From the NCBI RefSeq assembly GCF_025840185.1, contig NZ_JAMPJU010000001.1, positions 434,001 through 498,000 on the forward strand: a DNA stretch of 64,000 bases, written 5' to 3'. Origin of the DNA: Brenneria izbisi. Lineage in GTDB: Bacteria; Pseudomonadota; Gammaproteobacteria; Enterobacterales; Enterobacteriaceae. Shown one piece after another: positions 30,086 through 35,437 of the stretch. The position numbers and the translations under genes are program-made. The notes beneath the pieces are model-generated. The model did not search any database. It saw only the letters and a program-made list of their open reading frames with translations, and was not told the origin of the DNA. Position 1 is the stretch's first letter. The number at the start of each line of letters is the position of its first letter.

Positions 30086-31723
30086 TTAATGCTTGATAAT
30101 ATAAAGATCTTTAACGTAAACGTAATCCAGCGGATCTTTACCGGTTAATCCGCCGACATAGGGTTTTACCAACCGAATATTGGCGTAGTAATAAACCGGC
30201 GCGATGACCGCATCCTTATCCAGCAAAGCCTCAGCTTGCTGATAAATCACCGAACGCGCTTCATCCGTGGTCACCTGCAAGGATTTGCTCATCAATTGAT
30301 CAAATTCCTGATTTTTATAATGCGACGTGTTGTTACTGCTGTCCGATATCATGCTATTCAGGAAGGTAGACGGCTCATTATAGTCGGCGCACCACCCCGC
30401 ACGCGCAATATCATATGTCCCCTGATGACGTGAACTGAGGTACGTTTTCCACTCCTGATTATCCAGCTTGACGGTAACGCCGATATTTTGCTTCCAGAGC
30501 GATGCCGCCGCAATAGCCAGCTTTTTATGTAAATCAGAGGTGTTATACAACAGGCTCAGCGTCAACGGTTTGTCGGCGGTATAACCCGCTTGCGCCAACA
30601 GTTTTTTTGCTTCTTCATTACGCTTCGCCTGCGGCCAGGTAAACCACTCCGGTTCGTCGACTTTCAATCCATCAATGTAAGGCGGCACAAAACCATAAGC
30701 CGGCGTGTCGCCCTGATTCTTGACTTTATTGGTTAAAATATCCTGGTTCAGCCCCAAACGCAGCGCGGTTCTTACCCGGACATCATTAAAGGGCGCTTTC
30801 TGATTATTGATTTCGTAATAATAAGTACACAAATAAGGATTGGCCTGCACTTCCTGCGGAATTTCTTTTTTCAGTTTCTGGAACAGTTCGATGGGCAGAT
30901 AATTATAGGTCATATCGATTTCACCGCTGCGGTAGCGGTTTACATCCGTCACTTCGGAGGCAATCGGCAAATAGGTGACCTGATTAATCACCGTATCGGC
31001 GTTATCCCAGTATTGCGGGTTGCGCGCCAGCACGATTTTTTCATTCACCACCCACGCTTTCAGCTTGTAGGCGCCATTACCAACCCAATTTTGTGGTTGC
31101 GTCCATTTATCGCCAAACTTTTCGACCACCGATTTATTGACCGGCGACATCGCCGGATAAATCGGCAATTTATAGAAATAAGGCACCGCTTCAGACAGCG
31201 TGATTTCCAGCGTATGATCGTCCAGGGCTTTCACTCCCAGCGTATCAGGGGCTTTCTTGCCGGCAATAATGTCATCGATATTCAATAAATGACCATATTG
31301 CAGATAGCTGGCATAAGGGGATGCGGTTTTGGGATCGGCCAGGCGTTGCCAGCTATAAACGAAATCCTGCGCCGTGACGGGATCACCGTTTGACCAGCGC
31401 GCATCTTTGCGCAAATGAAAAGTCCACACCTTGAAGTCTTTATTATCCCAACGTTCCGCCACGCCGGGGATCACTTTGCCGTTCACATCTGAAATCACCA
31501 GCCCTTCCAGCACATCGCGCAACACATTCGACTCTGGCACGCCTTCGATTTTATGCGGATCCAATGACGCCACTTCCGCGCCGTTATTGCGCACCAGTTC
31601 CTGTTTTTCCGCCAGTTGGACGCCAGCGGGAACGGTGGCCGCCCAGGTTTGTCCCCCTGTTGTTGCGTACGACAACGCAATGAAACTGGCCAGCAGGCTT
31701 TTTCTTGTGATCATGTGTGTCAT
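30086..31723 (-). CDS. oppA: Periplasmic oligopeptide-binding protein OppA
   Basis: The substrate-binding protein of the Opp system (family 5 solute-binding protein, 545 residues). A signal peptide is cut near TWA-ATVPAG, after which the mature sequence (VPAGVQLAEKQELVRNNG) matches E. coli OppA. GGAGAGGAGA precedes ATG 31723; another ATG three codons downstream (31714) is also possible. In E. coli the sRNA GcvB represses oppA; I could not confirm a target site here. Confidence 0.97.
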   Translation of the reverse strand: MTHMITRKSLLASFIALSYATTGGQTWAATVPAGVQLAEKQELVRNNGAEVASLDPHKIEGVPESNVLRDVLEGLVISDVNGKVIPGVAERWDNKDFKVWTFHLRKDARWSNGDPVTAQDFVYSWQRLADPKTASPYASYLQYGHLLNIDDIIAGKKAPDTLGVKALDDHTLEITLSEAVPYFYKLPIYPAMSPVNKSVVEKFGDKWTQPQNWVGNGAYKLKAWVVNEKIVLARNPQYWDNADTVINQVTYLPIASEVTDVNRYRSGEIDMTYNYLPIELFQKLKKEIPQEVQANPYLCTYYYEINNQKAPFNDVRVRTALRLGLNQDILTNKVKNQGDTPAYGFVPPYIDGLKVDEPEWFTWPQAKRNEEAKKLLAQAGYTADKPLTLSLLYNTSDLHKKLAIAAASLWKQNIGVTVKLDNQEWKTYLSSRHQGTYDIARAGWCADYNEPSTFLNSMISDSSNNTSHYKNQEFDQLMSKSLQVTTDEARSVIYQQAEALLDKDAVIAPVYYYANIRLVKPYVGGLTGKDPLDYVYVKDLYIIKH

Positions 31724-32387
31724 TCTCCTCTCCTTTGACTGTTTGACAAAACATCTGCATCTGAGTGGTGTTATTGACGATTCAGCGCGACTGCCATTTA
31801 TGCCTGACTAACAAGGTGTTAACGGATTCGTTGTATCTGCGTCGTCATGATTATCAGACAGAATCGATGATTACCGTAATAGAACCAATAAAAATAACTT
31901 ATCAATTACACTGCAATGACGATATTAATCCGAAGCTATCAAAAGCCCTCACATCCGCCAACATGTTTAAAGCCGCGTTGCTGAGTATTATTTAAGCCAA
32001 ATGAAGCAATCATTAAATATCATCAAGCCGATAAAGATTAACTAATTGATAAATTACGCTATTTAATATGATATGCCTTTTTATAAATAATCATCCATTA
32101 AACTATTGATACAAAAAAGATCTGCCCGAATCCTGACGCCGAGATAAGTAACCATACCATCGCTCGCTTAAACACATAACATCCTATTGCTCCATTCGTT
32201 ACAAATTTAGCAAAATATACTTAACCTATAGGGCTATGCAATGACAGTGCTCACGATTAAAAGATAAAAAAAGCATGTCAAACATTACATTTTTACATAA
32301 GAATTATTTATGAAAAGGCGAGAATATTCGCCAGCACAAAGGCATTGATGGGATGCCAGGCGCGGCGATAAAAACAGATAAGTTGAA

Positions 32388-32408
32388 TATTGATAATAAT
32401 TATCAATA
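32388..32408. promoter_or_regulatory. Fur-box-like palindrome
   Basis: The core TGATAATAATTATCA equals the 7-1-7 Fur consensus (TGATAATnATTATCA) at every fixed position, and the dyad extends to 10-1-10. It lies 338 bp upstream of adhE and 664 bp from oppA. The target is unclear. The half-site spacing excludes FNR. Confidence 0.7.
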
Positions 32409-32455
32409 ACCGCTTGCTGAATGGTGTCAGCATAACAAAAAATAGACAGAGATCA

Positions 32456-32486
32456 CAAAAAAGAGCCTCACAAATCGGTATGCTCT
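32456..32486 (-). terminator. Possible minus-strand terminator upstream of adhE
   Basis: AAAAGAGC and GCTCTTTT form an 8-bp stem with a 14-nt loop. On the minus strand six T follow the stem, and on the plus strand four. No gene feeding it is known. Confidence 0.4.
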
Positions 32487-32746
32487 TTTCATACTCGGTT
32501 AAACAAGCGAATATTCTGCATTCACACTAATCAGCAAATTTTTATTTTTATAATACCCGCCATTCTCGATTACAGTATTTTAAAAACCGAATAGTAGACC
32601 ATGGAGGTCGACAAGCTCTTTGAGTCAATCAATGCGACGTAACGGATATACGTTTTGTTGGCAAAACGCGTTCAACGTACGTTTATCTATACCTTTGGGC
32701 TTAGCAGCGATTGACTGAAAGAGTTTAACATTATCAGGAGAACATT

Positions 32747-35437
32747 ATGGCCGTAACCAATGTTGCTGAACTTAACGCACTAGTGGAAAGAGTAAAGAAA
32801 GCGCAGCAGGAATTTGCCAACTATTCCCAGGAACAAGTTGATAAAATTTTCCGCGCTGCCGCGCTCGCCGCCTCAGATGCACGTATCCCGCTGGCGAAGA
32901 TGGCCGTGGCCGAATCCGGCATGGGTATTGTTGAAGATAAAGTGATCAAAAACCATTTTGCTTCCGAATACATATATAACGCTTATCAGGACGAAAAAAC
33001 CTGTGGCGTTCTCTCTACCGACGATACCTTTGGCACCATCACCATCGCCGAACCGATTGGCCTGATTTGCGGTATTGTGCCGACAACCAACCCGACTTCC
33101 ACCGCGATTTTTAAAGCGCTGATCAGTCTGAAAACCCGTAACGGGATTATCTTTTCTCCGCATCCCAGGGCCAAAAGCGCCACCAATAAAGCAGCGGATA
33201 TTGTTCTGCAGGCAGCGATTGCGGCGGGCGCGCCTAAAGATATTATCGGCTGGATTGATCAACCTTCTGTTGAATTGTCCAACCAGTTAATGCATCACCC
33301 GGACATCAACCTGATTCTGGCAACCGGCGGCCCCGGCATGGTGAAAGCCGCATACAGTTCCGGTAAACCCGCAATTGGCGTGGGCGCGGGCAACACGCCC
33401 GTCGTCATTGATGAAAGCGCCGACATTAAACGTGCCGTTGCTTCTATTCTGATGTCGAAAACCTTCGATAACGGCGTGATCTGTGCGTCTGAGCAGTCGG
33501 TGATTGTAGTTGAGAGCGTCTATGATGCGGTACGCGCGCGTTTCGCTTCTCATGGCGGCTACATGCTGCAAGGTAGAGAGCTTCAGGCCGTTCAAGGCGT
33601 ATTGCTGAAAAATGGCGCGCTCAATGCAGATATCGTGGGCCAAACAGCGCCGAAAATTGCAGAAATGGCGGGGATTTCTGTACCTGACAACACGAAGGTG
33701 CTAATCGGTGAAGTGACCGCGGTTGACGAGTCGGAACCCTTTGCCCACGAAAAACTGTCGCCGACCCTGGCCATGTATCGTGCCGTCGATTTCAACGATG
33801 CGGTGATGAAAGCTGAAAAACTGGTTGCGATGGGCGGCATCGGCCACACCTCCTGTTTGTATACCGATCAGGACAACCAGCCGGAACGCGTCCATCATTT
33901 CGGCAACAAGATGAAAACCGCCCGTATTCTGATCAATACCCCTGCGTCTCAAGGCGGTATCGGCGATCTGTATAACTTCAAACTCGCCCCTTCCCTGACG
34001 TTGGGTTGCGGTTCCTGGGGGGGGAATTCCATCTCGGAAAACGTTGGTCCGAAGCACTTGATCAACAAGAAAACGGTAGCCAAGCGAGCAGAAAATATGT
34101 TGTGGCATAAACTTCCCAAATCCATTTATTTCCGTCGCGGTTCATTGCCGGTGGCACTTGAAGAGGTCGCGTCCGACGGCGCCAAACGCGCATTCATTGT
34201 GACTGACCGTTTCCTGTTCAATAACGGTTATGTCGATCAAGTGGTCAGCGTGCTGAAACAGAATGGGCTGGAAACCGACGTGTTCTTCGAGGTCGAAGCA
34301 GACCCTACTCTGAGCATCGTGCGTAAAGGCGCTGAGCAAATGAACTCCTTTAAACCGGATGTCATTATCGCGCTGGGCGGCGGTTCTCCGATGGATGCGG
34401 CAAAAATCATGTGGGTGATGTACGAACACCCCACTACCCATTTTGAAGAACTGGCGTTGCGCTTTATGGACATCCGTAAACGTATCTACAAGTTCCCGAA
34501 AATGGGGGTAAAAGCCAAGATGATTGCCATCACCACCACATCTGGCACCGGTTCCGAAGTTACGCCGTTTGCGGTGGTGACCGACGACGCGACAGGCCAG
34601 AAATATCCTCTGGCTGACTACGCATTAACCCCGGATATGGCCATTGTGGACGCCAATCTGGTGATGAATATGCCAAAATCGCTGTGCGCCTTCGGGGGAC
34701 TGGATGCGGTGACTCACTCACTGGAAGCTTATGTCTCGGTATTGGCGAATGAATATTCTGATGGTCAGGCGTTACAGGCGCTGAAGCTGTTGAAAGAAAA
34801 CCTGCCGGCCAGTTATCGCGACGGTGCGAAAAATCCGGTAGCCCGTGAACGAGTCCATAATGCCGCAACGATTGCCGGTATCGCATTTGCTAACGCTTTT
34901 CTGGGTGTTTGTCACTCCATGGCGCACAAGCTGGGCTCGGAGTTCCATATTCCGCACGGTCTGGCGAATGCGCTGCTGATCTGCAACGTTATTCGCTATA
35001 ACGCCAATGACAACCCAACCAAGCAAACAACGTTCAGTCAGTATGACCGTCCACAGGCTCGACGTCGTTATGCCGAAATCGCTGACCATCTGCGGCTGAC
35101 CGCACCGAGTGATCGCACCGCGCAGAAAATCGAGAAGCTGTTGAACTGGTTGGAAGAAATGAAAACTGCGTTGGGGATCCCTGCCTCCATCCGTGAAGCG
35201 GGCGTACAGGAAGCGGATTTCCTGGCGAAAGTGGATAAACTGTCTGAAGATGCGTTCGATGACCAATGTACCGGCGCTAACCCGCGTTATCCGTTGATTT
35301 CTGAACTGAAACAGATTCTGATGGATACCTACTACGGTCGTCAATTCTCTGAAGATACCGCAAAAAAAGAGGTGGAAGCTGTTGTTGCTGCGCCCGCAGC
35401 AAAAACCGTGAAACAATCGAAGAAAGTCACCAGTTGA
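32747..35437 (+). CDS. adhE: Bifunctional aldehyde-alcohol dehydrogenase AdhE
   Basis: AdhE reduces acetyl-CoA to acetaldehyde and then ethanol during fermentation and assembles into spirosomes. The 896-residue fusion has an N-terminal CoA-acylating aldehyde dehydrogenase (catalytic Cys in GVICASEQSV) and a C-terminal iron alcohol dehydrogenase with GGGSPMDAAK and metal ligands in THSLEAY, CHSMAHKLG and HIPHGLANAL. AGGAGA precedes ATG 32747. The C-terminal tail is Ala/Lys-rich. A hairpin and a terminator follow. Confidence 0.98.
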   Translation: MAVTNVAELNALVERVKKAQQEFANYSQEQVDKIFRAAALAASDARIPLAKMAVAESGMGIVEDKVIKNHFASEYIYNAYQDEKTCGVLSTDDTFGTITIAEPIGLICGIVPTTNPTSTAIFKALISLKTRNGIIFSPHPRAKSATNKAADIVLQAAIAAGAPKDIIGWIDQPSVELSNQLMHHPDINLILATGGPGMVKAAYSSGKPAIGVGAGNTPVVIDESADIKRAVASILMSKTFDNGVICASEQSVIVVESVYDAVRARFASHGGYMLQGRELQAVQGVLLKNGALNADIVGQTAPKIAEMAGISVPDNTKVLIGEVTAVDESEPFAHEKLSPTLAMYRAVDFNDAVMKAEKLVAMGGIGHTSCLYTDQDNQPERVHHFGNKMKTARILINTPASQGGIGDLYNFKLAPSLTLGCGSWGGNSISENVGPKHLINKKTVAKRAENMLWHKLPKSIYFRRGSLPVALEEVASDGAKRAFIVTDRFLFNNGYVDQVVSVLKQNGLETDVFFEVEADPTLSIVRKGAEQMNSFKPDVIIALGGGSPMDAAKIMWVMYEHPTTHFEELALRFMDIRKRIYKFPKMGVKAKMIAITTTSGTGSEVTPFAVVTDDATGQKYPLADYALTPDMAIVDANLVMNMPKSLCAFGGLDAVTHSLEAYVSVLANEYSDGQALQALKLLKENLPASYRDGAKNPVARERVHNAATIAGIAFANAFLGVCHSMAHKLGSEFHIPHGLANALLICNVIRYNANDNPTKQTTFSQYDRPQARRRYAEIADHLRLTAPSDRTAQKIEKLLNWLEEMKTALGIPASIREAGVQEADFLAKVDKLSEDAFDDQCTGANPRYPLISELKQILMDTYYGRQFSEDTAKKEVEAVVAAPAAKTVKQSKKVTS

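Follow-up and report, generated by a model that had tools for sequence, protein, structure and literature searches.

The window studied here is the whole stretch of DNA analyzed, 64 kb in length, in which adhE and a divergent oppA-like gene are separated by a gap of 1,023 bases. Within this gap, TATTGATAATAATTATCAATA at positions 32388-32408 forms a perfect dyad with 10-base arms centered on 32398, and it is the sole 10-1-10 dyad in the window. Its core (32391-32405) aligns to the 7-1-7 Fur consensus TGATAATNATTATCA with 0 mismatches, matching 14/14 consensus positions. An earlier note on this DNA had described a 10-1-10 dyad holding the full 7-1-7 Fur consensus, which the exact core bears out, and the distances that it gave, 338 bp to the adhE ATG (32747) and 664 bp to the oppA start (31723), are correct. 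Its description of the kilobase as gene free holds for clear protein genes but not for the region as a whole, because the adhE promoter and leader lie inside it. The features that we place at the locus are as follows.

30086..31723, minus strand: oppA-like solute-binding protein gene (SBP_bac_5), the divergent neighbor (open reading frame and Pfam).
32388..32408, no strand: perfect 10-1-10 dyad with exact 7-1-7 Fur box (dyad scan and consensus match).
32416..32431, plus strand: Cra-like operator GCTGAATGGTGTCAGC, near-invariant upstream of adhE (Cra consensus and reported binding of Cra at E. coli adhE).
32443..32456, plus strand: degenerate FNR/CRP-like box TAGACAGAGATCAC (hand layout and consensus).
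32459..32489, plus strand: 8-pair stem over the predicted -10, the possible terminator of the earlier note (folding; window and closest relative only).
32479..32484, plus strand: predicted adhE -10, TATGCT, within GGTATGCT (distance from the Cra-like box matches the E. coli downstream promoter).
32616..32723, plus strand: adhE leader with helix arms 32616-32630 and 32709-32723, conserved and covarying, just 5' of the ribosome-binding site.
32747..35437, plus strand: adhE, 896 amino acids, Aldedh and Fe-ADH domains (open reading frame and Pfam).

By hand layout, the block upstream of adhE runs in the order Fur box, 16-bp Cra-like box, FNR/CRP-like box, and extended -10, with the Fur box outermost. 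We take the 16-bp box to be Cra-like from its likeness to a Cra consensus (14/16 positions) and, likewise by consensus, the box at 32443-32456 to be FNR/CRP-like; relatives read TTGATNNNNATCAC or TGTGANNNNNNTCACA at the latter, of which the window carries a degenerate copy. According to the title of a 1999 paper by Membrillo-Hernandez and Lin, fnr and RpoS reportedly act on E. coli adhE through a downstream promoter. The extended -10 reads GGTATGCT in the window and GAGTAATCT in E. coli, and the distance from it to the Cra-like box, counted by hand, is identical in the two. This layout would place the adhE transcription start at about 32490-32491, the center of the Fur box at about -92, and the center of the FNR/CRP-like box at about -41. 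A promoter scan of the window found nothing at its threshold that overlapped the Fur box, which lies about 92 bp upstream of the predicted start. A laxer scan returned weak pairs only, including a leftward pair (8/12, with TG before the -10) that overlaps the Fur box and a rightward 8/12 promoter with its start at about 32389, and a promoter overlapping the box was not favored on that account. Cra binds E. coli adhE regulatory DNA in electrophoretic mobility shift assays (EMSA) (PMC5829826).

Two of these elements are well conserved in their own right. An exact GCTGAAWGGWGTCAGC was present in 230/392 family genomes, nearly always once per genome, and the reversed control gave no match. This box (32416-32431) is strikingly invariant and nearly always single copy, and Cra may not be the whole reason. 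The arms of the leader form 15 pairs, with 89.8% of cells paired across 15 sequences; 6 pairs were changed on both sides, and the covariation score was matched by 0/500 shuffles. No Rfam match to the leader helix was obtained at E values up to 5, and we assume that it is probably the counterpart of the RNase III-dependent adhE leader of E. coli.

The palindrome itself might be an AT-rich accident without function, given a gap of 36% GC and a degraded copy in the closest relative. In first-order Markov controls built on the composition of the window or of the adhE-oppA gap, respectively, 10-1-10 dyads arose at a mean of 0.2 per 64 kb and 0.002 per 1,023-base gap, and the exact 7-1-7 core appeared in 0 of 60 window-sized and 0 of 3,000 gap-sized sequences. 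An expectation so far below 1, together with the conserved fixed offset described below, led us to reject a chance origin, which we regard as extremely improbable; the offset argues against it for the lineage, though not against a loss of function in this species. The E. coli Fur ChIP-exo motif is TGAnAATnATTcTCA (PMC10164565), and the window's Fur box fits that motif save for an A at the weakly conserved c.

Next to chance expectation stands the conservation of the site. The window's AdhE is 95 to 96% identical to that of Pectobacterium and 92% identical to that of one Brenneria. When the whole gap was searched against the nine genomes of the window's genus, distant members retained mainly about 32383-32487 and the adhE leader, and two genomes (G001 and G006) additionally retained a piece nearer oppA. 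The Fur box was in place in 9/9 of these genomes at 11 to 14 of 14 positions, the closest relative (G007) having a weak box of 11/14. For a wider sample, 80 loci were chosen by AdhE, of which 73 were usable; 7 were dropped because they had a short flank or no Cra-like box with at most 1 mismatch. A Fur box with at least 11/14 positions lay 24 to 27 bp before the Cra-like box in 20/73 loci, 13 of them at exactly 25 bp, against 8 matches at 92 other offsets together, a background of about 0.001 per offset per locus. The site was found under 8 of 33 genus labels (one label being "unassigned"), and the other 25 were below the threshold. Those with the site were Pectobacterium (3/3), Brenneria (1/1), Serratia (5/8), Edaphovirga (1/1), Rahnella (3/3), Enterobacillus (1/1), Yersinia (3/3), and Proteus (3/3). 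When loci were instead chosen by the Cra-like box, all 85 were usable and 20/85 qualified, in 12/56 genera; 5 of those 20 belong to the window's genus, one being the window itself. The 85 comprise the first 30 matches listed and 55 others that we selected manually from the listed matches, with roughly one or two for each genus. These two counts are fairer than an earlier set of 166 segments, which includes loci found with a query that contained the box.

The distribution of the box is patchy. Among 25 Yersinia genomes, 21 matched the 19-base form of the site with at most 2 mismatches, at a distance of exactly 25 bp to the Cra-like box in 20 of them and elsewhere in one, leaving 5/25 without an in-place match; the 20/25 count was taken without species names and so is not specific to Yersinia pseudotuberculosis or Yersinia pestis. 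In the Yersinia alignment, the Fur box is as invariant as the Cra-like box, and the bases immediately upstream are variable. A further well-conserved stretch was seen in the Yersinia loci (L238-L258) about 100 to 160 bp 5' of the Fur box (alignment columns 80 to 140). On a FastTree AdhE tree of 80 rows, 75 of them labeled (of 81 rows, 6 received no label at the limit of 2 mismatches, and an internal stop removed one of those 6), the box label required 7 changes against 18.4 in shuffles, 0/500 of which were as low, and near-copies contribute to this clustering. Among named, scorable loci, no Erwiniaceae and no Enterobacteriaceae save Edaphovirga reached the threshold, E. coli included; this family-level statement rests on the named loci, and the site-bearing genera g25, g104, g117, g126, and g145 are outside it. 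Edaphovirga is listed under Enterobacteriaceae and groups with Yersiniaceae on the AdhE tree. Some loci of Siccibacter, Enterobacter, Kosakonia, and Phytobacter reached 10/14, below the threshold, and in the loci scored the box was absent from 3/8 Serratia and from Rouxiella, Acerihabitans, Photorhabdus, Xenorhabdus, Providencia, Pragia, and Leminorella. These counts appear compatible with gain or loss of the box alike.

Sites of comparable quality elsewhere in the genome give an indication of what such a box accompanies. There are 4 exact copies of TGATAATNATTATCA, the window's included, and the remaining 3 adjoin metal or iron genes. Allowing at most 1 mismatch from TGAKAATNATTMTCA, we counted 27 sites against 3 for the reversed-pattern control, and the neighbors of 15 of the 27 (the window's and 14 others) were inspected through reading frames and a Pfam scan of the flanking proteins. 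Nine loci adjoin ten proteins of the following Pfam assignments: Fe-S assembly, Nramp, two TonB-receptor plug proteins, a ZnuA-type metal binder, a chorismate-binding enzyme with an iron-siderophore-type binding protein, FecCD, HemS, and a sigma factor. By the same assignments, made on four further proteins, one locus is beside a heavy-metal ATPase and a YhhN protein, one is beside an SBP_bac_5 protein, and one site falls within an RHS-repeat gene that has no link to iron; sites of this kind can therefore be idle. The remaining two sampled sites precede a RyhB gene. In this genome, then, iron or metal genes are the usual but not the invariable neighbors of a site of such quality. The genome encodes two proteins with the FUR-family domain PF01475, scoring 161.8 and 58.6 bits, of which the stronger is probably Fur and the weaker Zur.

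The earlier note had also suggested that the box drives an unannotated small RNA. Such an RNA would be Fur repressed and would run either rightward to the stem at 32459-32489 or leftward toward oppA. In this species, the box is indeed followed after about 60 bases by a foldable stem with a U run, and the weak leftward promoter-like pair (8/12, TG before the -10) overlaps the box. Nevertheless, we consider a small RNA very unlikely, and the suggestion went unsupported. Rfam searches at the locus at E values up to 5 gave two irrelevant subthreshold matches and no RyhB. RyhB genes are present elsewhere as two copies in each of 9/9 genus genomes, and both copies in the window's genome have Fur-like sites upstream. 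Furthermore, species that have no Fur box also conserve the Cra-like, FNR/CRP-like, and -10 elements that lie downstream of it here, and 4/8 other genus genomes (G002, G003, G004, and G008) match nothing to the left of the box. The absence of a threshold promoter on the box and the lack of conservation of the stem completed the grounds on which this candidate was rejected. The stem folds at -7.8 kcal/mol, and 6/200 shuffles were at least as good; a terminator scan of the window with loops of 3 to 8 did not list it, and among the 17 sequences folded it was shared by the window and its closest relative only. The terminator that the note had thought possible at 32456-32486 thus survives as a foldable stem but not as a terminator, a reading that we rejected because the stem is species local and overlaps the predicted -10 of adhE. 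As a separate observation on RyhB, one copy (G000, C15:202309-202471; L225 and L226) has two Fur-like boxes ahead of it, spaced 38 bp from start to start.

A conserved dyad could also be bound by a regulator other than Fur. Some sites depart from the consensus in the middle of the dyad, such as TGATATTGATTATCA in Pectobacterium, so that Fur is a candidate for the binding protein, and genus g117 carries at this position dyads, GATAGGTTAAAACTATC among them, that are nearer an OxyR consensus. Against this, the window copy is an exact Fur box, and a matrix built from 49 sites gives TGAKAATNATTMTCA, most strongly in its right half, an argument that is partly circular in that the sites were chosen for their likeness to the consensus. 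On balance, we think another regulator unlikely. The g117 dyads (loci L130, L111, and L196; GATAGGTTAAAACTATC is that of L130) lie 25 bp before the Cra-like box, and if, as we assume, they are closer to an OxyR consensus, they may reflect an exchange of regulators at one position.

Our preferred reading is that Fur-Fe(II) controls adhE through the palindrome, with either sign, to which we give a probability of about 0.72. This reading is built on the site, its fixed spacing, its conservation, its patchy distribution, and the presence of a Fur-family protein in the genome. The palindrome would be a Fur operator belonging to the adhE promoter, at which Fur with Fe(II) would bind about 92 bp upstream of the predicted start, behind the Cra-like and FNR/CRP-like boxes, and would add an iron signal to a promoter already reading glycolytic flux and oxygen. 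Fur binding, the position of the transcription start, and iron control are predictions from the sequence. The suggestion in the earlier note that adhE, which encodes an iron enzyme, might be under iron control gains support from the fixed, conserved position of the box across genera.

As to the sign of the effect, we lean toward activation over repression. Activation is favored because AdhE carries Fe-ADH domains and because the promoter scan placed nothing at its threshold over the Fur box; a center near -92 is presumably on the face used by upstream activators. Fur-Fe would then aid adhE expression, either as a direct activator or by relief of silencing, and an iron enzyme would be made when iron is available. 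Several reports can be set beside this lean. In Caulobacter, iron-bound Fur can directly activate genes for iron proteins (PMC6120978). In Shewanella oneidensis, adhE goes down on iron depletion and up on repletion, with no Fur site shown (PMC2667191). Strongly negative values for adhE, cited here apart from the meaning of their columns, stand in a table of an iron and fur mutant study of Clostridioides difficile, likewise with no Fur site seen (PMC6311696).

Within the same main reading, Fur-Fe could instead repress adhE by occupying the start site of an upstream promoter, the counterpart of P1 in E. coli, so that iron starvation would move cells toward fermentation. We view this as somewhat unlikely, although more than one point speaks for it. 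Fur is mostly a repressor, and the E. coli P1 start at -292, when mapped by its spacing from the Cra-like box, presumably falls at about 32389, on the edge of the Fur box, where the weak rightward 8/12 promoter also has its start. However, the Fur box has no overlapping promoter at the scan threshold. Moreover, Fur activity is highest where Fe(II) is abundant, anaerobic growth included, and repression would peak anaerobically, just when adhE is induced, a point that we also count for activation. Under O2 limitation, adhE rises 16.8-, 3.6-, and 3.9-fold in Dickeya, Pectobacterium, and E. coli, respectively, by our reading of the columns (PMC3349551). Expression in plasma is a further point for repression: relative to LB, adhE was 2.116-fold higher in Y. 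pseudotuberculosis and 3.383-fold higher in Y. pestis, in a medium that is iron poor, but plasma is also richer in glucose, and the authors invoke both factors for aceB and its neighbors and not for adhE by name (PMC2631605).

Among the papers listed in searches of an open-access library, we saw no report of a Fur site at adhE in Enterobacterales; subscription papers were mostly outside that scope, so this is weak evidence of absence. The main text of the E. coli Fur pan-regulon paper has 0 whole-word mentions of adhE, which fits the missing site in E. coli, and the main text of a Y. pestis iron starvation proteome makes no mention of AdhE, which we count against Fur control. The parts are of known kinds, a Fur box and an adhE promoter, and their combination is new as far as we searched. 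We conclude that 32388-32408 is a real, conserved candidate Fur operator for adhE, through which the likely Fur regulon would extend to a central fermentation gene in several enteric genera that do not belong to the E. coli group. If this is true, the capacity of soft-rot pathogens, tree pathogens, and Yersinia to ferment to ethanol would be set directly by iron supply, and the E. coli model has no such connection. More tentatively, we suggest that in Pectobacteriaceae, Yersiniaceae, and some Morganellaceae and Hafniaceae, Fur-Fe(II) may directly activate adhE from a fixed position beside Cra and FNR/CRP, making ethanol fermentation conditional on iron, and that E. coli and the Erwinia-Pantoea lineages may have no such input, in which case the E. 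coli model of adhE would not be general.

The arrangement can be compared with several known systems. Fur-repressed RyhB likewise has a Fur box upstream of what at adhE might be a short RNA, but the adhE locus gave no RyhB match, and the genome's two RyhB genes are elsewhere. With known Fur box operators, the window shares the 7-1-7 dyad; it differs from them in that its box is in a fermentation promoter, about 92 bp before the predicted start, with no clear promoter beneath (PMC10164565). The adhE control region of E. coli aligns with the window in its Cra-like box, FNR/CRP-like box, -10, and leader helix and, unlike the window, has no Fur-like site at the corresponding position (7/14). Although adhE has a single box and a mechanism of the ftnA type would be putative here, Fur-activated genes such as ftnA of E. 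coli likewise have a Fur site upstream of the gene for an iron-using protein.
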